Virus record (IMG/VR): IMGVR_UViG_3300033149_004629
Location: 1-20,116 of that record
Length of the DNA: 20,116 bases
Reading direction: 5' to 3' (one strand)
Source of the DNA: a virus
The position numbers were made by a program, and so were the translations under genes. This document shows, one piece after another, positions 1-19,474 of this stretch (positions are counted from its first letter, which is position 1; each line of letters starts with the position of its first letter). The notes below the pieces were generated by a model. It saw only the letters and a list, made by a program, of their open reading frames with translations, was not told the origin of the DNA and did not search any database.

Positions 1-18
1 CGGGGCCAAAGCGGATGT

Positions 19-107
19 CCGAAAGCGGAAAGCCGAAAGCCGAAAGCCGAAAGCGAAGGCTCGGAAGCTGGTCCGCTTTCCGCTTTCGGCTTTCCGCTTT
101 CCGCTCT
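19..107. repeat. Inverted array of heptamer repeats (GAAAG-type)
   Basis: Five tandem 7-base units of the form C[C/G]GAAAG or CGGAAAG lie at 19-53. After an irregular spacer (54-72), five units of the opposite orientation, (CCGCTTT/CGGCTTT), lie at 73-107. The two arms can pair as an imperfect long hairpin, with C/C or G/G mismatches where the variable base differs. The array fills most of the gene-free stretch 1-228, in which I see nothing else. The same family returns at 1273-1375 and 8574-8615. The units are directly visible. Function (terminator-like structure or selfish repeat) is unknown. Confidence 0.9.
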
Positions 108-228
108 TCAGTCACCCTTGACACGGGCCTCGGCGGTCGCTAGTCTGGACGACCGTCGTCTGCTTCTCCTGTCGGACCACGGGGCCCGGTGACTGCGAGC
201 ACCGGGCCCTCAGCTCGCAGGCTCTCGA

Positions 229-1183: not shown

Positions 1184-1399
1184 ATGGCAAATTTGGCTGC
1201 GCTGCTGGGGTCGATCGCCGTCGTGACTGGGTGCGGAACCGCGCTGGTCGGCGGCTTCGTGAGCATAGACTGCGGAAAGCCGAAAGCGGAAAGCCGAAAG
1301 CGGAAAGTCGAAAGCGGAAAGCCGAAAGCGAACGCCCCTTCCGCTTTCCGCTCTCCGCTTTCCGCTTTCCGCTACTGGACTACCCACGAACGACCTTAG
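1184..1399 (+). CDS. Small hydrophobic or lipoprotein-like ORF whose C-terminus is repeat DNA
   Basis: I chose ATG 1184 over an in-frame upstream ATG at 1169 because GGAGG at 1171-1175 sits 8 bases before 1184. The first ~28 of 71 residues are hydrophobic (MANLAALLGSIAVVTGCGTA). They include VTGC, which fits a lipobox, though the usual N-terminal basic residues are missing. From about residue 30 onward the reading frame passes through the heptamer inverted array and yields a Lys/Arg/Ser-rich low-complexity tail. The tail is probably not selected protein sequence. The gene may have been truncated or extended by the repeat. Confidence 0.35.
   Translation: MANLAALLGSIAVVTGCGTALVGGFVSIDCGKPKAESRKRKVESGKPKANAPSAFRSPLSAFRYWTTHERP
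1273..1375. repeat. Inverted array of heptamer repeats (GAAAG-type)
   Basis: Eight consecutive 7-base units (CGGAAAG/CCGAAAG, one TCGAAAG) occupy 1273-1328. A short spacer follows, then five units in the opposite orientation (CCGCTTT/CCGCTCT) occupy 1341-1375. The arms can form a long imperfect stem. It stands between the convergent ends of the plus-strand small ORFs and the minus-strand GT32 gene, so it could act as a two-way transcription stop, but there is no T-tract beside it. Confidence 0.9.
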
Positions 1400-1406
1400 C
1401 GGTCAC

Positions 1407-1434
1407 TCTCCCCTCACCCCTCGCCACTCTTCAG
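1407..1434. repeat. Short heptamer array (TCACCCC-type) over the GT32 stop codon
   Basis: Four seven-base steps read TCTCCCC, TCACCCC, TCGCCAC, TCTTCAG. On the minus strand this gives GTGGCGA, GGGGTGA, GGGGAGA, matching the start of the array at 7599-7633 (GTGGCGA, GGGGTCA). The TGA that ends the GT32 gene (1414-1416) lies inside it. The last codons of that gene are repeat sequence. Confidence 0.65.
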
Positions 1435-2025
1435 CCAACTGCCGGCGAATCGGTGGCGGGCCACGGAATGCCGGATGTCGTCGAAGGTGAGCTGTTGGCC
1501 TCGCTTGTGCTGCTGGTAGGTCAGCGGCAAGAAGGTCTTGTGCTCGTAGATGCGCACGTCGCCGCGCGACTTGACGATCGGGGCCAAGAGCCGGCTGGAG
1601 GTGGAGAGCTGCTCGTCGGGCCGGAAGCGACCGGGCAGGGCATCGAGGATCGCCTTGAATGCAGGATGCCCGGCCACGCCGCCGAAGATGCTGGCGGTCA
1701 CGTCGCCGCGATGGTTGGCAAAGGCGAAGAAGGCTTCGCAGCCGACGAGCCAGGGCTCGATGGACTGATACCACTGGTAGTCGGTGTCGCAGTACACGCC
1801 GCCGTTGCGGTAGACGAGCCAATAGCCGGCGATGTCCGAGCGCTGGACCACGTTCGCGCGGGACCAGACGTGTTGCAGCCGGGAAGGCAGGAGCACCTCA
1901 TCCCAGACGAAGTCGATCCAGGCCGGGTGTAGACGCTGGCACTCGGCGATCCACTCACGGTGCTGTGCCGGCATCTCCGGGCCGGCCCAGAAGCGGTGGA
2001 AGATGCGAGGGATGAGGAGGCTCAT
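1414..2025 (-). CDS. GT32-family glycosyltransferase (DXD sugar-binding type)
   Basis: The 203-residue product matches the OCH1-like / glycosyltransferase family 32 pattern. It starts with IPRIFHRFWAG (residues 5-15). It then has the segment RSDIAGYWLVYRNGGVYCDTD (residues 62-82), in which DTD at 80-82 is the DXD motif that holds the metal and nucleotide-sugar phosphate. HRFAGSW follows near the end (191-197). Such enzymes transfer a hexose from a nucleotide sugar to a glycan or protein acceptor. No signal peptide or membrane span is seen, so it is likely cytosolic. Its ATG overlaps the stop of the sulfotransferase-GT2 gene (ATGA), indicating coupled translation and a shared substrate. The last five residues are encoded by repeat DNA, so the C-terminus may be altered. 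Family confidence is high; acceptor unknown. Confidence 0.85.
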   Translation of the reverse strand: MSLLIPRIFHRFWAGPEMPAQHREWIAECQRLHPAWIDFVWDEVLLPSRLQHVWSRANVVQRSDIAGYWLVYRNGGVYCDTDYQWYQSIEPWLVGCEAFFAFANHRGDVTASIFGGVAGHPAFKAILDALPGRFRPDEQLSTSSRLLAPIVKSRGDVRIYEHKTFLPLTYQQHKRGQQLTFDDIRHSVARHRFAGSWLKSGEG

Positions 2026-3659
2026 CGCTGATCCCCTTCAAGCGTGACCGGGGAAAACAATTCGCCGCTGTGGTTGTGACGAGGCAGGTCGACCAGGTTC
2101 CACTTGGCCAGCAGCAGGTCGGCGTTGTCGCGGTGGCGAAAGCGATCGTATCCGCGCCCAGTCTGACGCACGTGGCGGGCAATCACCTGGGGCGTGAAGG
2201 CCAAGCGCCCGCCGTGTTGCTTCACGGTCAGCAGCCAATCGAGATGCTCCCGAGAAATCTTGAACTGCGGGTCCCAGGGACATTCCAGCAGGAACTGGCG
2301 GCGGGCCAGAAAGAAGTTCCAGCAGATGTCGGTGCGTCGGTAGCGGGTGTCGCCGACGGTCTGCCACGGCGATCGCAGTGGGCCGACCGTGGCCCGTTGC
2401 TTGCCGCCGGCCGCGGGGCGCAAGACCAGGTCGCCGGTCCAGTTGGACAGCCCACTGCCGGCCCAATCCAAGACGCCGGCCACGGCGTCGATCTGGGCGT
2501 CGCAGTTGAGCACGTCGACGAACCGCTCCAACAGGGTCTGATCGGTAAACAAGAAATCGTCGTCGGCCAGGAGCACGTAGCGAGCGCTGGCGTGCTCAAC
2601 AAGCCAGTTCCGCCCGAAGGCCAGGCCGGAATCGAAGGGGAGCATGAAGGCCCGCACGCCTGGGGCGCGGACCGTCTTCCAGAAGTAATCAGGATAATCG
2701 TCCGGCCGCCGCCAGGAATCGTCGGCCACCAGGATCTCCAGCGTGGGGTAGCTGCGACGGATCGACCGGACGCAAGCCGCCAACGCCCTGAAGCGGCGAA
2801 AGCTCTTGATCAGGACCTGGCAGTCGGCCGCCACCGCCGCGCCCGGTGATGTCGCCGGCCGGCAGTGGCGGGCCTTCTTGGGCTCGACGTGGGCGACGGC
2901 CGCCTCGATCTGGTCCGGGGCCGGCGTGAGGCCGAGGTAGTCGATCACCCGGCCCAACTCGTGACGCGGGTCTCGCAACAGATCGTGAGACCGAACCGTC
3001 AAGTAGCTCCGCTTCTCCAGGAACGCCTTCTGTTGGGTATCGAGGTAGGATTGCAGCCGACGGCACTCATCGGGCGTTGCCGCGAATCGACCCTTGCCTT
3101 GGGATCGGTCGACGAGCGATCGGACCGACTCCCAGTAGGGTCGCTCAAGGTGGATCACCTTCAGCCGGACGCCGCCGCGTTCCAGTCGTCGAAACTCTTC
3201 GCCCCAGGCGCAGAGCGTGGGATACTTCATGCCGACCGGTCGACCGTCGGCGAGTTGACGATGGAAGTCTACCCAAGTCCGCAGTTGGTTCTTGCGCCCG
3301 CAGATGAACACGTTTTCTCGCATCAAGCCGGCCCAGATGGTGGGAAATGGCATGGTCTGCTCGCAGAGCGCGGCCAGCTTGGAATCCTCGCCGCCGTTGG
3401 TCTGCTCGCCCATCCACACGCCCAGCTTCTCCAGACAGACGGCCAGGCAGCTCGACAGGGTGCGGTGGATGCCCAACACCAGGATCAGCTCGGAGTGGTA
3501 TCGCTCGGGCCGCGATCCGGACGGCTCTTGGCCCGGGCCGATGCCCTGCTCCCACAACTCTCGATAGGCCGGCCGCCGTTGGCAGAGCGAACACCAGTAG
3601 GTGGGGATGCCGTAGATCTCGCAGCGGTCGTCGATCGCGTGTTCGCAGGGATCACTCAC
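2022..3659 (-). CDS. Fusion of sulfotransferase-like domain and GT2 glycosyltransferase
   Basis: I place the start at GTG 3659, which overlaps the stop of the adhesin gene (GTGA). The frame is open further upstream, but that part is the shadow of the adhesin. The 545-residue product has three parts. First, residues 1-30 hold a Cys pattern C5, C13, C23, C26 that could bind zinc. Second, about 55-265 is sulfotransferase-like. It has LVLGIHRTLSSCLA (60-73) at the usual 5'-phosphosulfate loop, VGMKYP (142-147), and KVIHLERPYWESVRSLVDR (167-185) at the 3'-phosphate-binding strand/helix. Third, about 280-530 is a GT2 fold, starting VLIKSFRRF. It has VADDS (311-315), GLAFGRN (345-351), the metal-binding DDD at 366-368 (in LLADDDF), and a C-terminal W/H-rich region. 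The enzymatic roles (sulfate transfer and sugar transfer) are inferred from these motifs. The P-loop lacks the canonical GxxRSGTS, so sulfotransferase activity is uncertain. It sits between the tail adhesin and GT32 genes. Confidence 0.8.
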   Translation of the reverse strand: MSDPCEHAIDDRCEIYGIPTYWCSLCQRRPAYRELWEQGIGPGQEPSGSRPERYHSELILVLGIHRTLSSCLAVCLEKLGVWMGEQTNGGEDSKLAALCEQTMPFPTIWAGLMRENVFICGRKNQLRTWVDFHRQLADGRPVGMKYPTLCAWGEEFRRLERGGVRLKVIHLERPYWESVRSLVDRSQGKGRFAATPDECRRLQSYLDTQQKAFLEKRSYLTVRSHDLLRDPRHELGRVIDYLGLTPAPDQIEAAVAHVEPKKARHCRPATSPGAAVAADCQVLIKSFRRFRALAACVRSIRRSYPTLEILVADDSWRRPDDYPDYFWKTVRAPGVRAFMLPFDSGLAFGRNWLVEHASARYVLLADDDFLFTDQTLLERFVDVLNCDAQIDAVAGVLDWAGSGLSNWTGDLVLRPAAGGKQRATVGPLRSPWQTVGDTRYRRTDICWNFFLARRQFLLECPWDPQFKISREHLDWLLTVKQHGGRLAFTPQVIARHVRQTGRGYDRFRHRDNADLLLAKWNLVDLPRHNHSGELFSPVTLEGDQR

Positions 3660-4714
3660 GCCGGGTTCTCCGTGACTACCATGTAGTAGATACAGATGTA
3701 GGGCGGCTGGCCGGAAATCTCGGCCTGAAACGGGCCGTAGGTGAGGGACAATGGATTGCAGGAGCCGGTCGACGGGTAGGCACCCCAGTCGCCGCCGCAA
3801 CCGGAAATGCCTTGCTTCCATCCGCCGGCGCCGCCGCCCGGAGTGCCCGCACGATTGCACAACAGCCAATCTTCCCAATTCGACCCGCCGCCCGGGCAGC
3901 GGAGATCGAATTCGTAATCGTCCATCACCCAGGGACTGTCGGGCGTGCAGCCGAACTCCGGGAGTCGCCCCTCGGCGTGCCAGTTGAACAGGTTGTCCTC
4001 CTCATGATTCAGCTCCAGCGACTGACCGTCGAGGCAGGAGCAGGTTTGAACAACCACGAAAGTCAGCAAGAGCCGCCGCTTGACCGCATAGTGTCCGCAG
4101 TCGCAAGGACAGACCGGGCAGGCGTCGTCGGTGACAAAATGCTCCCAGAATTCAAAATTGTCGAAGTCCAAGGCCGTTGTGCCGCCGTTGCCGAGCCCCC
4201 AATAGCGGCCGGCCGGACTGCCCGACGGGAGCACGCTCCAGGCGATGTTCGATCCGAGCGAGCTTAAAGCGTAGATCCCCGAATAATTGCGGCAAGCGGA
4301 CAGCCGTATGTCGGTGCCCGGCGTGTAGGTGGTCAATACGGTCCTGATCGCACTGTCGACACCGCCGACCACTTGGCCCACCTCGAGATACGCGTCGGTG
4401 CCCGTGGCGGCACAGGCCAAGCCGGCCCAGTTGTAATTGCGGTCGTCCTCCCAGTTGATGACGATCCTATAGCGCTTGTTGGGCTGCGGGTTGACCAGGT
4501 CGACGTATGCCAGGCCGGTGGCCGTGTCCCAGGGGTGACGAGGTCCGATCACCACGGCGCCTTTGGTGCCCAGCTCGCGGAGCCGTTGACTGACGATGGG
4601 CCAATCGCCAAGACGCACCTCCCACGTCTCGCCCGGCGTGGAGGCGTCGGCCCGGTTGAACAGGTCCCGAAAGATGATGCAGCCCAGACAGCAACAGCGG
4701 CGCCGACCTCCCAT
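3656..4714 (-). CDS. Cysteine-rich, lectin-like tail protein (adhesin candidate)
   Basis: The start at 4714 is supported by AGGAGG (complement of 4725-4730) 10 bases upstream, inside the stop of the previous gene. The longer in-frame extension has no such support. The 352-residue product opens with CCCLGC (C7-C9, C12). Residues ~13-190 look like a concanavalin/LamG-type beta sandwich: FRDLFNRADAS, YRIVINWEDD, alternating strands, and ending LDFDNFEFW. A CPVCPCDC cluster (C199, 202, 204, 206) follows. The C-terminal ~130 residues are rich in Cys, Trp and Gly. Eighteen cysteines in a virion protein suggest metal binding or disulfides. Position last among the tail genes fits a receptor-binding or tail-tip protein. 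Translation is coupled to the downstream glycan-modifying enzymes, so it is a possible glycosylation target. Family assignment is by pattern only. Confidence 0.7.
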   Translation of the reverse strand: MGGRRRCCCLGCIIFRDLFNRADASTPGETWEVRLGDWPIVSQRLRELGTKGAVVIGPRHPWDTATGLAYVDLVNPQPNKRYRIVINWEDDRNYNWAGLACAATGTDAYLEVGQVVGGVDSAIRTVLTTYTPGTDIRLSACRNYSGIYALSSLGSNIAWSVLPSGSPAGRYWGLGNGGTTALDFDNFEFWEHFVTDDACPVCPCDCGHYAVKRRLLLTFVVVQTCSCLDGQSLELNHEEDNLFNWHAEGRLPEFGCTPDSPWVMDDYEFDLRCPGGGSNWEDWLLCNRAGTPGGGAGGWKQGISGCGGDWGAYPSTGSCNPLSLTYGPFQAEISGQPPYICIYYMVVTENPA

Positions 4715-4728
4715 TTTGGAGCACCCTC

Positions 4729-5361
4729 CTAACTGGACCCCGCACAGCCGGGCGTGGTGCAATCCAAGGAATTGACGTAGAGAATCTTCCCGTGCGTCTT
4801 CGAGGGAAACCAGTAGCCGTCGCCCGTTGCACACTTGGCCGGCTCGGGCACGCCATGTCGCCAGTCGATGGCCTTATAGGTGGTCGACTTGTCGTAATCG
4901 AAACCATCGGTCACCGGATTGCGAGTGCCCACCCAGACGTTGAAGACGATCCCGCGCCCGGGGTGATCCTCGGCCAACTGCAGCCCGGTAGGCAGGCATT
5001 GGGTGATGAACCACCACTGCCCGTTGTGCCAGAAGACATCGACCAGGCTGCCCTCATCGGCGTAGCAGTTGAGCCCCAGCCCGTGGGCCACGGCAATCGG
5101 GTTGTCGGTCGATTGGCGGTTGGCCAGCGTATGGTCTTGCCAGCCCTGGGTCTCGATGTAGGAGCCGTCGACGAACACGATGTGGAAGGTGTTGGCCGGG
5201 GCCTTGGGATACTGCGAGCTGTCCGGATCGGCCACGGTGATGGCCAGCCGGGTCTGACGGGCGGGGGTGATCCGCGCCGACCGGCCGGCGAGCTGCTCGA
5301 CCTGTCTCTTCAAGTCGGCCACCTCACCCGCGACTTCGCGTATCCAGTTGTCGTAGCGCAT
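4729..5361 (-). CDS. Minor tail protein with N-terminal coiled coil
   Basis: The ATG at 5361 overlaps the hub gene's stop (TGATG), so the two are probably co-translated. The 210-residue product begins with a short helix of heptad character (about residues 6-26, REVAGEVADLKRQVEQLAG). A mostly beta domain rich in aromatic residues follows (segments such as VDVFWHNGQWWFITQ), then a Cys-containing end. I do not recognise a named family. Lying directly after the tail hub, a coiled-coil plus beta protein is likely a tail-tip or fibre-base component that trimerises through the helix. The C-terminal CTTPGC pattern echoes the Cys-rich neighbour downstream. Confidence 0.65.
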   Translation of the reverse strand: MRYDNWIREVAGEVADLKRQVEQLAGRSARITPARQTRLAITVADPDSSQYPKAPANTFHIVFVDGSYIETQGWQDHTLANRQSTDNPIAVAHGLGLNCYADEGSLVDVFWHNGQWWFITQCLPTGLQLAEDHPGRGIVFNVWVGTRNPVTDGFDYDKSTTYKAIDWRHGVPEPAKCATGDGYWFPSKTHGKILYVNSLDCTTPGCAGSS

Positions 5362-7592
5362 CAGATCAGCTCCATCACGTCGAGTTCCGCCCACTGCGTT
5401 TGGATGGTGGTGGTGTGCGTCTCCTTCGTGCTTTGAGCAAAGGTCACCCGGATCGAGGTGATCACCGTGCGGATCGTCTCGGCCTCTTCGCCCTCGGGGC
5501 CGATCTCGGCGACAAGGTCGCCCACGTGGAACAGCCCGGCGTTCTGGACCTGTTCCCAGGTCAGCCTGAGTGTCTTGCGGTCCTGGCCGTACCATTCGTA
5601 GGCCAGTCGGGCGGCGTCTTCCAATAGCGCGAGGTCGTCGCGGATGTACTGGCCGGCGGCCGTGACCAGGTCGCCGTGGGTGTCGACGCCCAGCACGGTG
5701 CCGGGCACAAGAAGGATCCGCGCGGCCCGGGCCGAGGCGTCCACGGTCTTGATCCGCAGTGCGTCGATGGCACCCTCCACCGTGGCCGGATAGCGGGCCT
5801 CCAAGACCCAGTCGGCCTTGATGGCCACGGTGAAGATCATCTCGTCTCGCCAGTCGTACTCCGGTATCGCAATCCAGGCGTCGGCGTCGGTGCCCCCGTC
5901 GAAATCAGTGGCGGCGATGGCGTGCTGCGGCGCGCCGTGGACCTTGAGCACCAGCCCGGCGGCGGCGTCCTGCACGCGAACCGAGCAAGAGAAATATCGC
6001 CCGTGGCCGTCGCCGGTCCCCTCGATGGCCGCGCAGGCGGTGAGCTTGTCGGCGAGCTGGTACTTGTCCTCGGTGGAATCGAGATCGTCGTGCAGCTTGA
6101 AGAACACCAGCGGCTGCTGGTATTCGTAGGTCACGCCGGGCGCGGTGGCGTCGGTCGCGCCGTAGTCGCCTGAATAGTCCACGTTGACCCTCAGCGGCAG
6201 CTGCCGCTCGAAACGCATGGTGGGCCGGTAAAACAGCCGGTCGGTCTCCGGGTCCAGCCCGTTGTCGGTGTAGGCGTAGTTGGGCAAGATCGCCAACCAA
6301 TAAACGTCAGGGTCGATGCCCGCGGGCTCTTCGGGCCATCCCGCGGCGGCGCCGAACCAGCAGTAGACGCGACTCAGCTCCTCGCGGGCCCGGTAGTCGG
6401 CATTGCGCTGTTGCTGCTCGGCCAGGGTGAGGTCGTCGTATCCGGGAATGGGGGAGGCCGCCGCGTTGTAATCCTCCTGCTGCGCGGCGCTCCAATGCTC
6501 GACGATAGTGGTTTGATGCTCGTTGTCGTTGGCCCACAGACTCAGGCAGAACTCCAGCGGCTGGCCCACGGCCCGGACTTGGTCCACCTTTTCCACGGCC
6601 ACGGCGTCGATGGTGGCGCTGCGCACGTCCAGGGCCGACTCGAAATCAATGGCGATCTGGCGTTGGCTGGCCGTGGGCGGGTAGAGCCAGCCGGATGGCA
6701 GTTGCACCTGATCGGCGAAGAAGGTGCAGGGGCGAATTTCAATGCGGTCGTCGGCAGCTACCTCGACCGTGTACGACAGGCCGCGCCGACGATCCAGCAG
6801 GCCGTCGAGCACCTGCTTGAGGGTCCGGCCGTGGGTCGGCACGCGCGGATGATCGTGTTGCGGCAGATACAGTGCCGCGTCGTCGTGCAAGGTCAGTTCG
6901 ATCCGGTCGCCGCCGACCGAGGGCTGCGGGCCGTGCTCTCTGACCAGATGATAGGCGATGGCGAAGGTGTGCCACTGCTTGGCGTTCTCAAGATCCTCGA
7001 CCTTGGGGCCGGCGAACATATAGTTGCCGCGCGGGCCGACGTTGGGCGACATGTTCCCCACGCTGTGCGGCCGGTTGGCGGCGTGGGCCTTGGCCTGATC
7101 CGGGCCGTTGAACTCCAGGCCGCGACCCACCACGTAGAGCCCGCCGCGCCCGTTGTCCACGTAGGCCTTGCGGATGGTGTCCATCGACAACAGGCACTCC
7201 ATGCCAACGCATTGGAACGTCTGGAGCTTGGGCACGCTGGTCACGGTCCGCTTCACGTCCACGCAGCGGCCGTACCAAAGCAGGTCGTCGGCCTCGCCCT
7301 CCTCGCCCTCCTCTTCGGTGGGCGTGGTCTGGGGGATGGAGATCTTGATCCAATGATCGACGATGTCCAAGGGCTCCACCGCTGCGGTGCAGATCTCGCC
7401 TTGACGCGCGCCCGTGCCGTACTCCCAGATCAGTTGGGCCGAGGAGACCTTGGGCGACGCGCACCACTCGGCGAACACGCACCACAGGTATTGGCGCTCG
7501 GTCCAGTCGTCGGACCATTTCCGGCGGGTGTAGACCGTGGGCGCGACGGCCGAGCGACTGAGATCGGTGCTCGTCTCGATGCGGGTAGGCAT
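5361..7592 (-). CDS. Tail hub / baseplate protein
   Basis: At 743 residues this is the largest tail-tip gene, and its place after the tape measure and distal tail genes fits the hub. Residues 1-135 form a mixed domain with an acidic loop (EEEGEEGEADD, about 93-103). Residues ~220-330 include a segment like late-control-D/gp27-type hubs, TLKQVLDGLL followed by GLSYTVEV. The last ~100 residues (LRLTWEQVQNAGLFHVGDLV..., then an ITSIRVTF strand and IQTQWAELD) resemble the closing beta domain of many phage hubs, where a property such as surface tilt or offset is measured against a reference frame. In the virion it would join the tail tube to receptor-binding proteins and help puncture the envelope. 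The ATG at 7592 has no clear ribosome site; a heptamer array occupies the leader. Family naming is by position and weak motifs. Confidence 0.7.
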   Translation of the reverse strand: MPTRIETSTDLSRSAVAPTVYTRRKWSDDWTERQYLWCVFAEWCASPKVSSAQLIWEYGTGARQGEICTAAVEPLDIVDHWIKISIPQTTPTEEEGEEGEADDLLWYGRCVDVKRTVTSVPKLQTFQCVGMECLLSMDTIRKAYVDNGRGGLYVVGRGLEFNGPDQAKAHAANRPHSVGNMSPNVGPRGNYMFAGPKVEDLENAKQWHTFAIAYHLVREHGPQPSVGGDRIELTLHDDAALYLPQHDHPRVPTHGRTLKQVLDGLLDRRRGLSYTVEVAADDRIEIRPCTFFADQVQLPSGWLYPPTASQRQIAIDFESALDVRSATIDAVAVEKVDQVRAVGQPLEFCLSLWANDNEHQTTIVEHWSAAQQEDYNAAASPIPGYDDLTLAEQQQRNADYRAREELSRVYCWFGAAAGWPEEPAGIDPDVYWLAILPNYAYTDNGLDPETDRLFYRPTMRFERQLPLRVNVDYSGDYGATDATAPGVTYEYQQPLVFFKLHDDLDSTEDKYQLADKLTACAAIEGTGDGHGRYFSCSVRVQDAAAGLVLKVHGAPQHAIAATDFDGGTDADAWIAIPEYDWRDEMIFTVAIKADWVLEARYPATVEGAIDALRIKTVDASARAARILLVPGTVLGVDTHGDLVTAAGQYIRDDLALLEDAARLAYEWYGQDRKTLRLTWEQVQNAGLFHVGDLVAEIGPEGEEAETIRTVITSIRVTFAQSTKETHTTTIQTQWAELDVMELI

Positions 7593-15555: not shown

Positions 15556-17895
15556 CTAGGAGGTGCCGTCTGAGTAGTGCAGTGCTCGGTAGCAGAGGGC
15601 CTTGGCCCCGATATCGAGGTTGATGTCGAAACCCACGCCGTATTGACCTTGGGTGAGCACGAAGGATCGCATCTGCGGTCTCCGCCCGGTCCCCCGGAGA
15701 TAGCCGACCTCGATGGTCTTGGCCCCGTTCTCGCCCGGTCGACCGGCCAAGAACCAGTTGGTGGCCGAGCCGGTGTATTTGGTGCCCGTTGCCGGATCGA
15801 CCACGCCGGCGGCGCCGATCCGGTCGTCGCTTCGCAGGTTCAGCTCCTCGAAGGCCAACGGGTTGTAGATCCCGTCGGTGCCGTCGTAGTCCCGCGTGAT
15901 CGACTTCAGCAGCACGGCGGCCGTGAACCGGAGGTCCTGGGGCACGATCAGAAATCGCGCCTTGACGTTCAGCGGGCGCGTGCGGATACGGTGCTTGCTC
16001 ATGGCGATCAGCGCGGCCTCCAGGCCCGCAGCGTCCAAGGCGTCCTGCGTGAGGTTGGCGTGTCCGCCGGCGGTGGTCTCCGCGGTGGCGTTGAACAGCG
16101 CGCCGCCGTCCGACAGGGCGGCGTTGGCCAAGAGGATGGCGTACACCAGGTTCGGTCGCAGTTGCGCGGCCGAGCTGCCCATGTCCCTGGGCGCGACCTG
16201 ATCCACGGCCCCCAGCCGATCGTCGATGATGTCCTGCTCGTCGATCACGAACTGGCCGGCGTAGCGGGCGATCTTGTACTCCTCCTTGGAGTCGGAGTCG
16301 TCGAGGTGCTCGGCGGTCTTGCCGCGGCTCAGCTTCTTGAGGGCGCCGAACTTGCCCATGGCCACGCGCTCGTTGGTCTGGAAATTGGCCACGTCGGCCT
16401 CGCTCACCCAGCCCACGGTGGAGTCGGCCGCGTCGGTGTACCCGGCCAACAGTTGCGCGCTTACGTTGGTGCTGAAGATGTTGGTCAGCGCCGAGCCGGA
16501 GACGGCGGCCCGGATCATCTCGCCGCGAGCGGTGGGCACGCGAATACCGTCCAGCCGGCAGGCCTCCCGGCAGATGTCGATCAGGGACCAGTCGCGGTAC
16601 TGGTAGCCGCGCTCGGCCGCCTGCTCCAGGTCCGTGGTGGGCTGATCCTCGCGGCGCCGCACGAGCGAGCCGTCGATCACTCGCACGAAGTCCCTCACCG
16701 GGTCGAGGTTCTCGCGGATCATCATCGCCGCGCCCAGGGCGGCCAGCGTGCAGTCCTGGTCGTGGCCGCGCACGTGGATTGACGGGGCGCAGCCGACCGG
16801 CGGGGTGCGGTCTTCGCGGTGTGCGCGAAGGAACTCGCGCGCGGTTCGGGCTTCGTCCCATCGCTCGCGGATGGCCTGATCGACCAGCTCGGGCGGCGTG
16901 CGATCGTCGGCCAGCTCGCGGATGGCCAGCACGCGCGCGTGCTCCTGCTCGGCTCCCTCGGCACGGATGGCGTCGGCGTTGGGGGCGGCTTCGAACACTC
17001 TCAACGGCTCCGCTTGGAGCAGTTCGCCTTGACGCTGGCCGGTGGCTTCCGGTCCTGCCTGAGTCTCGCTCCGCGTGGCCAGCTCCTTGGTGGGGTCGTC
17101 CGGGTCGACCTTGAGCCCTTCCAGGGTCATGCGGGTCATCAGCCTGGAGGTCTCGTCCTCCGGGTCCTCGCGCGCCAGGATCGTGGCGATCTGGCCCGAG
17201 CGTCCGGAAAGCAGGCCCAGAAAGGTACGGGCCTCCTCCTCGCTGGCCTGGGTCCGCAGACCGATCGATTCCAGATACTTTCTCAGTCGGGGGTTCATTG
17301 GCTGTTCCTCTTCTCTTGGTATGGGCCGGCGGCCCGATTCGCTCCTGGTCTTGGCCGCCTCGTCCGCGCCGATCGGCGTGAGCGATAGCTCGCGGGCGAC
17401 CCACTTGGTGGTCACGCGCAGGACCCGGTCCCGCGCCCGATACTCCTTGCCCAGCACGGCCCGCCGCTCGCCCGGCTGGATGTCGACGTAGTCCACCGGC
17501 TCGTAGCCGATCGACACGTCACGCGCGTGGCCGTCGCGGTACTTCTGCCAGGCACGCTCCGCGCCTTCGTCGCCCGCGGCAAAGTACACGCGGCACACGG
17601 TGGCGGTGCCCTCGACGCGAAGGTCGCGGGCGGATCCGAAAACTGAATCCATCGATGAGCGGTTGTGGTTGTGCAACAGCACGAGCTGATCGGGCAGCTC
17701 GGCCCCGCGGGCCAGCAGTATCTCGTCGATGATCCGGCCCCGCTCCCAATCGAAGACGGGCACCGGGTTCTCGGTGGTCATCACGGCCTCGATCGACCGC
17801 TGATCGAGGTTGACCGAATCGGGCCGGGTCTGAAGCGCGCGCGTGGTCAGCTCGCGTTGACGGCGGACGGTTCGCGTAAACAGGCCCTTAAGCAT
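15556..17895 (-). CDS. Prohead protease / major capsid protein fusion
   Basis: I start at ATG 17895 (GGAG upstream, 8-base overlap with the portal stop); the frame extends further into the portal gene only as shadow. The 779-residue product has an HK97-type prohead protease at about 1-190: LVLLHNHNRSS with His75/His77, and DVSIGYEP with Ser128, as candidate catalytic residues. A ~200-residue linker rich in charged residues and possibly acting as scaffold follows (about 200-430). The capsid protein occupies about 430-779 (GSALTNIFSTNVSAQLLAGY, VSEADVANFQTNERVA, KIARYAGQFVIDEQDII, RFLIVPQDLRF, and a final QYGVGFDINLDIGAKALCYR). Protease-capsid fusions are an established phage arrangement; the protease cuts itself and the scaffold away during head maturation. 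A possible internal start is at 17298. Confidence 0.85.
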   Translation of the reverse strand: MLKGLFTRTVRRQRELTTRALQTRPDSVNLDQRSIEAVMTTENPVPVFDWERGRIIDEILLARGAELPDQLVLLHNHNRSSMDSVFGSARDLRVEGTATVCRVYFAAGDEGAERAWQKYRDGHARDVSIGYEPVDYVDIQPGERRAVLGKEYRARDRVLRVTTKWVARELSLTPIGADEAAKTRSESGRRPIPREEEQPMNPRLRKYLESIGLRTQASEEEARTFLGLLSGRSGQIATILAREDPEDETSRLMTRMTLEGLKVDPDDPTKELATRSETQAGPEATGQRQGELLQAEPLRVFEAAPNADAIRAEGAEQEHARVLAIRELADDRTPPELVDQAIRERWDEARTAREFLRAHREDRTPPVGCAPSIHVRGHDQDCTLAALGAAMMIRENLDPVRDFVRVIDGSLVRRREDQPTTDLEQAAERGYQYRDWSLIDICREACRLDGIRVPTARGEMIRAAVSGSALTNIFSTNVSAQLLAGYTDAADSTVGWVSEADVANFQTNERVAMGKFGALKKLSRGKTAEHLDDSDSKEEYKIARYAGQFVIDEQDIIDDRLGAVDQVAPRDMGSSAAQLRPNLVYAILLANAALSDGGALFNATAETTAGGHANLTQDALDAAGLEAALIAMSKHRIRTRPLNVKARFLIVPQDLRFTAAVLLKSITRDYDGTDGIYNPLAFEELNLRSDDRIGAAGVVDPATGTKYTGSATNWFLAGRPGENGAKTIEVGYLRGTGRRPQMRSFVLTQGQYGVGFDINLDIGAKALCYRALHYSDGTS
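17296..17310 (-). promoter_or_regulatory. Candidate internal ribosome site and ATG within the protease-capsid gene
   Basis: In transcript sense GAGGAACAGCCAATG appears at codon 200 of the fusion gene. GAGG lies 8 bases before ATG 17298, in the charged linker just after the protease. Translation here would give a 580-residue capsid precursor without protease. Overlapping internal starts of this kind are known in phage head genes (for example lambda C/Nu3 and Mu I/Z). Use of this site is inference. Confidence 0.35.
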
Positions 17896-19474
17896 CGGCC
17901 GTCTCCGGTTCGGGCTCTGGGTCGAACTTGCCATCGGGGGCCTGGTCGGCCGGCGGCGCGGCGTCGTCTGCATCGTCCGGCCCGTCGAGGTCCTCACCGA
18001 CCGGCTTGTCGCTGGTCGACGCCTCCAGCTCGGCGTGGGTGGCGAACTTGGCGCTCTTGCCGAGGATCATGGGCATGGGCGGCAGACCGGCCGCCTTCAA
18101 CTTCTTGTGGGCCCGTACCCATTTGGCGATCTGGCCGTCGAGGGTCTTGCCGTCCTTCGCCAGCACGTCCTGCGGCGCGTCGGAGCCAATCTCCAGCCCG
18201 ATGCGGTCGGCGGTCTTTTCCTTGGAGGGGTCGACGTGGGGCGGCCGGGGCCACGTCCAGTCGTATTCCACGTCGGGCGGGCGCGGCGGCACCGGTCGGC
18301 GCTTGGCGCGATCGGAAAGCGCAGCCTCGCGGGCCACGTCGTCGACCAGCTCGGAGAGCGGGCCGGTCGAGCGCGGAGTGCCGGAGATGGCGTATTGGAT
18401 CACAGCACAGGCGCGATCGTAGTTCTGGCCGTCGAATCGGGCCGATGAGTAGTTGTGCCGGCCGGCGTCGAGGCGGACGATCATTACTGGCATGGCCACG
18501 GCTCGGCCGAGATCCATCTGCCGCTCGGAACGGTACGCGGTGTATTGCGTCTGGGGCTGCTGCGGCGTGAGCATGGCCGGCTTCCAGCCCGGCGGGCCGG
18601 TGCCCTGGGTGCCCCGCTCCTGCTCGATCGACTCGTCGACCTCCATGAACTGGGCGTCGCTGTGCTCGGTGTACCAGTACACGCCTTGGTTGGCGGCCTG
18701 GTGTGCGGCCTCCAACACCTCGGCGTCATAGTCGCGCAGGTCGGCCAGTGACTGGAGCGAAGAGGCGAGCCAGGGCACGCCGCGGGCCTGATCGCTTTCT
18801 CGCAAAAGAAAGAAATGCACGATGTCGTCGGGCGACACGGGCGTGGGTTCGACGGCCAACTCCCAGCCGCCGAACGAGTCCACCTCGGTGATCCAATAGC
18901 GCTGCGGCTGGCCGTCTCTTGAGAATTGGATGCCCATCACCACGTTGGTGTCGCCGCTCATCTCCACCGGCGTGACCAGGCGCCGCGAGTCGATGGGTTT
19001 GAGGCGCATGGCCACCGGCGTGTCCACGTTTTGGGCGGTGATCTTCTGGGCAAGGAACTCACCGGTTTTCCACAGGCTCTGCACCCAGAGCCGCAGCAGC
19101 GCTGCGCCGGAAACGCGAGGGTTGGGAGTCGGTGCCTTGAACCAACGCCGCCAGTGGCTTTCGAGCCAGTCGTTGTAGGCTTCCGACTCGCTCTGCACCT
19201 GGAGGTCGGGGCCGTCGCGCCCGACGATGTCCACGTAGTGAGTGAAGATCGTGCCGTCGACCAGCGCGTTGTTATCGGCCTCGTAGATGGCCCGGGCGCG
19301 GAGCACGGCCAGGTCGCTGGCCAGCTCGGCATTGATCGAGCCTTCCGCCGCGTTGAGCCAGTGGGCCTGGTTGAGGCGGTGCGTCTTGGCCGCCTCCCAG
19401 CGGCGCACGCCGTAGCTCCACCGGCCGGCCGGGGCGGGGTAGCTGCGAGCGACTTTGCCCATCACGCTGTTCAC
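17888..19474 (-). CDS. Portal protein (lambda gpB-like)
   Basis: The start is GTG 19474, with AAGGA nine bases upstream; ATG 19462 (residue 5) is an alternative. The 528-residue product shows the lambda-type portal pattern: YWITEVDS (strand), VSPDDIVHFFLLRESDQARG (the D-I-x-H...RG feature shared by portals of this family), VPWLASSLQSLADLRDYDAE (helices that line the channel), and a helical, charged C-terminus ending in a long acidic tail (PEPEPETADA). The portal forms a dodecameric ring at one capsid vertex through which DNA passes. It lies between the gpW-like gene and the protease-capsid fusion, with which it overlaps by 8 bases, as is typical. Confidence 0.85.
   Translation of the reverse strand: MNSVMGKVARSYPAPAGRWSYGVRRWEAAKTHRLNQAHWLNAAEGSINAELASDLAVLRARAIYEADNNALVDGTIFTHYVDIVGRDGPDLQVQSESEAYNDWLESHWRRWFKAPTPNPRVSGAALLRLWVQSLWKTGEFLAQKITAQNVDTPVAMRLKPIDSRRLVTPVEMSGDTNVVMGIQFSRDGQPQRYWITEVDSFGGWELAVEPTPVSPDDIVHFFLLRESDQARGVPWLASSLQSLADLRDYDAEVLEAAHQAANQGVYWYTEHSDAQFMEVDESIEQERGTQGTGPPGWKPAMLTPQQPQTQYTAYRSERQMDLGRAVAMPVMIVRLDAGRHNYSSARFDGQNYDRACAVIQYAISGTPRSTGPLSELVDDVAREAALSDRAKRRPVPPRPPDVEYDWTWPRPPHVDPSKEKTADRIGLEIGSDAPQDVLAKDGKTLDGQIAKWVRAHKKLKAAGLPPMPMILGKSAKFATHAELEASTSDKPVGEDLDGPDDADDAAPPADQAPDGKFDPEPEPETADA

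Follow-up and report, generated by a model that had tools for sequence, protein, structure and literature searches.

The gene set at the end of the tail operon

The window analyzed here is the whole 20,116-bp IMG/VR record IMGVR_UViG_3300033149_004629, with positions counted from its first letter. Its minus strand carries a portal gene (PF05136) and a fused protease-capsid gene (PHROG 4523, 1.6e-77), both of which are clear from Pfam and PHROG matches. The genes that follow, encoding tape-measure-like, tail-tip and P4 proteins, owe their names to position and conservation. The tail operon then ends with three genes that are the subject of this analysis. In the order in which they are read, the last five genes of the operon are:

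5361–7592, minus strand: conserved 743-aa tail-tip protein, its role inferred from position
4729–5361, minus strand: 210-aa tail protein (P4) upstream of the module
3656–4714, minus strand, start ATG: Cys-rich 352-aa tail-operon protein, a candidate acceptor or adhesin
2022–3659, minus strand, start GTG: 545-aa fusion, with a sulfotransferase-fold domain between a Cys-motif N-terminus and a GT12/GT2-type glycosyltransferase
1414–2025, minus strand, start ATG: 203-aa GT32-type glycosyltransferase

A sequence-only reading of this DNA had described the last three genes as following one another with four-base stop/start overlaps. That description is confirmed. All three open reading frames are present and the junctions are exactly −4 bp (GTGA and ATGA), with the 545-aa and 203-aa genes starting inside the preceding stop. 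A purine-rich stretch resembling a Shine-Dalgarno (SD) sequence lies 5' of both overlapping starts. A separate SD (AGGAGGG) precedes the Cys-rich gene, and 14 bp lie between its start and the stop before it. A scan of 1200–5400 turned up neither promoter-like nor terminator-like sites on the minus strand, and the arrangement therefore fits one operon. However, other junctions of the same tail operon also show short overlaps. For that reason the overlaps by themselves say little, and they were rejected as proof of function.

Domains of the encoded proteins

The 545-aa protein is a composite, and the features that matter for its activity are:

3507–3659, minus strand: Cys motif, residues 1–51 (CEHAIDDRCEIYGIPTYWCSLC...)
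2874–3491, minus strand: sulfotransferase-fold domain, residues 57–262
3444–3479, minus strand: 5'-phosphosulfate loop (5'-PSB) VLGIHRTLSSCL, in which the Gly of R-[SA]-G-[TS]-S is replaced by Leu68
3210–3233, minus strand: GMKYPTLC, containing Lys145
3102–3158, minus strand: 3'-phosphate-binding (3'-PB) motif VIHLERPYWESVRSLVDRS, with R173, S181 and R185
2100–2825, minus strand: glycosyltransferase domain, residues 279–520, B4GALNT1 (GT12)-like, with a DDDF metal motif

The N-terminal Cys motif is shared with short stand-alone proteins found at the same place in two near relatives, G002 and G005, which match residues 12–56. In G002 the short protein runs on into a DUF6171-like zinc ribbon, and the enzyme domains of the 545-aa protein seem to stand in place of that ribbon. 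In one chain, the viral locus L131 combines a Cys motif, a ribbon-like Cys pattern (recognized by eye), a GT25 domain and a sulfotransferase domain.

The sulfotransferase domain is 30–43% identical to the corresponding domains of phage GT25-sulfotransferase proteins, although the Pfam family Sulfotransfer_3 scores below the cut-off (0.021). An AF2 model was made from an alignment with 14 phage homologs. Residues 1–280 were folded alone because a mixed alignment of both enzyme domains misplaced fragments of the glycosyltransferase. In the domain core pLDDT is mostly >90. When the model was compared with known structures, sulfotransferases ranked first in Foldseek and occupied all of the top 11 rows in VIA (Z 13.3–14.1), whereas adenylate kinases reached at most 12.6. 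The structure prediction called for by the sequence-only reading has thus confirmed, at the level of a model, that residues 57–262 have a sulfotransferase fold, with the P-loop fold of the PAPS-dependent family.

Does the P-loop also fit PAPS? Here the answer is mixed. R173, S181 and R185 (R-x7-S, with an Arg four further on) align with protein-tyrosine sulfotransferase 2 (TPST2) in the same spacing, and Lys145 aligns with the Lys of 'NKDPF' in that enzyme. However, the 5'-PSB loop reads HRTLSS and departs from the pattern R/K-[STA]-G-[TS]-[TS], whose Gly is kept in every other aligned sequence. The same balance emerges from comparison with TPST1/2 and bacterial PAPS sulfotransferases (STF1, StaL and the CurM/olefin synthase sulfotransferase). 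The window domain shares their fold (Z about 13–14), 3'-PB spacing and active-site Lys, but it lacks the 5'-PSB Gly and is only about 11–21% identical to them in structure alignments. Perhaps the module is partly degraded, with working glycosyltransferases and a sulfotransferase domain that is inactive or has turned into a binding or scaffold domain. The sub-threshold Pfam score would fit this explanation, as would RTLSS, which alone among the aligned sequences replaces R[SA]G[TS]S. Nevertheless, we consider it unlikely. The 3'-phosphate motif, Lys145 and the fold are all kept, the reading frame is intact with no stops over 545 codons, and RTLSS itself may be a sequencing error. On the reading preferred below, the domain would still be active.

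The C-terminal part of the protein had been called GT2. It is indeed a glycosyltransferase, with PF00535 matching residues 282–403 above the cut-off (2.9e-10), but not a generic GT2 enzyme. Its closest solved relative is human B4GALNT1 (beta-1,4-N-acetylgalactosaminyltransferase 1, GT12; 9h6j), which phmmer matches to residues 266–477 (E 4.3e-22) and with which it has the DDDF motif in common. Judged by catalytic-domain similarity and the DDD metal motif, the domain is GT12 (B4GALNT1-like), and the family would suggest UDP-GalNAc as a candidate donor. Unlike B4GALNT1, it belongs to a phage protein and follows a sulfotransferase domain. A sulfotransferase fold and a glycosyltransferase are joined in one polypeptide, as the earlier reading had it. 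The GT32 assignment of the 203-aa protein has also held up, with PF04488 at 27.6 bits against a gathering score of 23 and a DXD motif in GGVYCDTDY. Family names of this kind do not, however, tell which sugar is moved or where the enzyme acts.

The first gene of the set has been harder to place. Its product was described as a Cys-rich, lectin-like tail protein. It is Cys-rich, with 18 Cys, but nothing has been found to bear out the lectin-like part. There is no Pfam or PHROG match, the predicted model was unusable (pLDDT 29), and profile matches in the PDB were meaningless hits to de novo designs. A true Laminin_G_3 protein (E 8.3e-16), which is lectin-like, does lie inside the module of a relative, L107. 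The Cys-rich protein has a homolog at the same place in G005 (IMGVR 3300028840_002503), and in the window it is the only adjacent candidate for an acceptor.

Recurrence of the module in relatives

Finding relatives required an indirect route. Direct searches of IMG/VR with P0001, P0002 and P0003 found none, nor did those with P0001 in genome contigs and in phage and plasmid collections, and a search of IMG/VR with the tail-tip protein returned only three relatives that were already known. P0001–P0003 are too divergent for direct searches, and capsid and domain profiles were therefore needed. Most of the capsid relatives found in genomes belong to planctomycetes (Phycisphaerae, Gemmatales), the exceptions being one Sumerlaeota and one other bacterium. 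The host of the window virus is probably a planctomycete as well.

Within this capsid lineage the module is not universal. G003 has the same tail tip (42–45% identical) and the closest distinct capsid (63–64%), yet downstream of its tail there is a short zinc-motif protein and no enzymes. It is the one informative relative for this comparison, since the G002 and G005 contigs end before the enzyme position. Among 31 other capsid-related records a GT32 gene occurs only in G011, as does a GT2-type match (weak and below the cut-off). Together with the gap in G003, this makes the module accessory in the lineage. GT2 matches in G035 and G037 were set aside as ordinary-looking cellular GT2 proteins.

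In a single protein of 677 aa, G011 (capsid 41–43%) joins a Cys motif to three domains, of which one is GT12-like, one is a P-loop domain resembling sulfotransferases and one is GT32. The P-loop domain (GHSGTRT, KDPR) has no Pfam match and was assigned by eye and by its likeness to L093. The gene starts inside the end of a Cys-rich 236-aa tail-operon gene, and the tail type of G011 is that of the Ser-rich loci described next.

These loci form a wider family. When P0001 was used over 392 genomes of the phylum it uncovered planctomycete prophages, L090 and L091, in which a tape measure, a tail protein, GT32 and a Ser-rich tail protein accompany a GT25-sulfotransferase (GT25-ST) fusion. The sulfotransferase domain is 39% identical to that of the window. 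A search seeded with the sulfotransferase-domain alignment alone then yielded 33 viral loci, 30 of which (L102–L131) were examined in detail, and further planctomycete genome loci. In every one of the 38 loci examined (the 30 viral loci plus genome loci) the sulfotransferase domain is fused to GT25, and the same two tail proteins lie beside the fusion in 36 of them. The set, including the window, amounts to 12 clusters at 75% identity, so the loci are not independent.

The tail protein beside the fusion mostly contains a mucin-like tract with up to 89 Ser/Thr per 100 residues. An open reading frame with at least 40 Ser/Thr per 100 occurs in 28 of 30 viral loci, compared with one of 45 capsid-related control loci that lack this sulfotransferase domain (Fisher p about 4e-17, a value to be read with the non-independence of the loci and the different lineage of the controls in mind). 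The window itself has no Ser/Thr-rich protein (maximum 12 per 40 residues), and hence no Ser-rich acceptor beside its glycosyltransferases. P4 was considered as a counterpart of the relatives' Ser-rich tail protein and rejected. The two are not homologous (hhalign probability 0.1) and are analogous in position alone.

Other features tie the window to this family. Its own glycosyltransferase family is found as stand-alone genes downstream of GT25-ST in 21 viral loci, which were left out of the profile that found them, and GT32 genes occur in L090, L091, L105 and L160. GT25 and Sulfotransfer_3 both score above the Pfam cut-off in L111 and L090, and the tape measure of L111 is confirmed by PHROGs (1.8e-81). 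The three genes of the window represent one divergent version of a module that recurs in relatives and is displayed more clearly by the GT25-ST loci. What does this mean for the conserved synteny that the sequence-only reading looked for? The same enzyme families do lie beside tail proteins at tail-operon ends, but not in G003. In other words, G003 is the kind of relative that was expected to count against the idea, one with the same tail and no enzymes, and it does so in part, yet the enzyme families recur at the tail-operon ends of other relatives.

Possible targets of the enzymes

One clue to the target is that the relatives' GT25 domain matches procollagen galactosyltransferase and the sulfotransferase profile matches protein-tyrosine sulfotransferase, which weakly fits a role in protein modification. 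The same enzyme types recur next to tail proteins with an unusually high serine content, which suggests that the viruses decorate their tails with sulfated sugars, and in the relatives distal tail proteins are probably sulfated. For the window, the explanation we prefer is that the tail operon of a planctomycete (pro)phage closes with an accessory module that assembles glycans and sulfates them, acting on distal tail proteins. We regard this as about an even call. The gene order, the coupling, the domain families, the sulfotransferase fold and the recurrence of the enzyme families beside tail proteins all speak for it. Against it are the lack of a Ser/Thr-rich protein in the window, the 5'-PSB Gly lost in the window only, the enzyme-free G003 and the non-independence of the sulfotransferase loci.

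If tails are the target, the enzymes would be made late, in register with the tail proteins, and co-translation would bring acceptor and enzymes together. The GT12-type domain and the GT32 protein would then act in the cytoplasm and glycosylate a distal tail protein, the putative acceptor in the window being the Cys-rich protein and in relatives, more evidently, the Ser/Thr-rich tract. As a final step, the sulfotransferase domain would transfer sulfate from host PAPS to the glycan or to the protein itself. As a result the assembled virion would show an anionic glycan at the end of its tail.

The earlier reading had left the choice between the tail or adhesin and the host surface open. The tail is favored by gene position and by the mucin-like tail proteins that relatives have, but sequence does not decide. 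Phage glycosyltransferases are classically conversion genes (PMC12619734), and the enzymes could alter planctomycete envelope or capsule glycans, either in the lysogen or late in infection, and might for instance block superinfection in a manner resembling serotype conversion. PHROGs classes the GT25 and GT2 matches of the relatives as moron genes, and in some relatives there are additional polysaccharide pyruvyl transferase or capsule-synthesis domains. However, the enzyme genes lie within the late tail genes, to which they are translationally coupled, and no promoter-like site was found for them. They are also associated with a single kind of tail protein. A flippase or lipid-carrier gene beside the enzymes was not noticed either, although the search for one was not systematic. 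Host-surface modification therefore seems doubtful. Much less probable still is modification of phage DNA or nucleotides, with the position a matter of chance. Phage glycosyltransferases often act on DNA (PMC12619734), but no DNA-modification gene was recognized in the window, the place beside tail proteins recurs in many relatives, and a sulfotransferase partner would be out of keeping with such a role.

Comparable systems are known. In Gram-positive bacteria, the loci for serine-rich-repeat glycoprotein adhesins encode a Ser-rich surface protein beside its presumed glycosyltransferases. The relatives of the window have the same arrangement with a Ser-rich tail protein gene. The differences are that the protein belongs to a phage tail instead of a cell wall, that a sulfotransferase is present, and that the window itself has no Ser-rich protein. 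To our knowledge, glycosylation of virions by phages has been described in few systems. In mycobacteriophages it is established as the work of phage enzymes, according to two papers that cite Freeman et al. 2023 for it (PMC12619734, PMC10877033), and those glycosyltransferases are believed to modify structural proteins of the phage itself, namely capsid and tail-tube subunits. The present module, predicted from its genes, differs in that a glycosyltransferase is fused to a sulfotransferase fold, the enzymes lie at the tail-operon end, the families are GT12-like, GT25 and GT32, and relatives have mucin-like tail proteins. Phage virion glycosylation is thus not new, but no description of a phage glycosyltransferase-sulfotransferase module or of a mucin-like tail protein was found in the open-access literature (most subscription literature was outside the search). 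To that extent the suggestion of an undescribed module stands.

What would the glycan do? It could be a shield, serve adhesion, or act as a ligand for host receptors of sulfated polysaccharide. Planctomycetes feed on sulfated polysaccharides with very many sulfatases (PMC4042473). On the strength of this biology it can be speculated that the sulfated mucin-like tail glycans are ligands captured by such a host receptor, which would put the glycan on the phage and its receptor on the host, the opposite of the familiar pairing of phage lectin with host glycan. We think this distinctly unlikely.

If tail sulfation is real, tails that bear sulfated glycans would make up a widespread class among the phages of a phylum specialized on sulfated polysaccharides. 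Several of the viral contigs have IMG identifiers that we take to be those of isolate genomes, and it may therefore be feasible to induce the phages and study their virions by glycoproteomics. As a further use, the module would provide compact natural glycosyltransferase-sulfotransferase fusions for making sulfated glycoproteins.

Repeats and a gene start in the window

A CGGAAAGC-type repeat forms two clusters to the left of the tail operon, at window positions 1-110 and 1272-1380. Each cluster is made up of inverted repeats and folds back on itself, and the clusters may mark a prophage edge or host DNA. There is also a perfect 51-bp tandem duplication at 342-443 (CGCGTCGCTCTTTCTTCTGCTCC...). 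Elsewhere in the window, the protease-capsid fusion, taken as its longest open frame, shares 110 bp with the end of the portal gene (17888-17997). The true start of the fusion may be further inside this frame.

Tail and sugar-modifying genes in related loci

Two viral loci (L105, L111) from the search seeded with the sulfotransferase (ST) domain and a planctomycete prophage (L090) contain the following.

L111:10648-15079, downstream of the GT25-ST fusion: genes for a sugar-transferase-like protein, a radical SAM protein (PF04055, 9.4e-11) and two GT12-like proteins
L105:6197-7852: Ser/Gly-rich tail protein with a central HINT (pretoxin/intein-like) domain (PT-HINT 1.9e-4, under the cut-off)
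L090:4752-5594, within the tail operon: polysaccharide pyruvyl transferase gene (PF04230, 6.8e-10)

The set in L111 recurs in several loci. The pyruvyl transferase is possibly a further anionic sugar modification.

Fusions ahead of long repeat proteins

Two loci in planctomycete genomes have a GT-sulfotransferase fusion directly ahead of a long repeat protein.

L092:6909-16845: fusion followed by a repeat protein with a Ser-Pro-rich N-terminus
L093:9050-14671: fusion followed by a repeat protein with RHS repeats (PF05593, 5.5e-67)

Therefore, the GT-sulfotransferase enzymes may act for further surface proteins as well.
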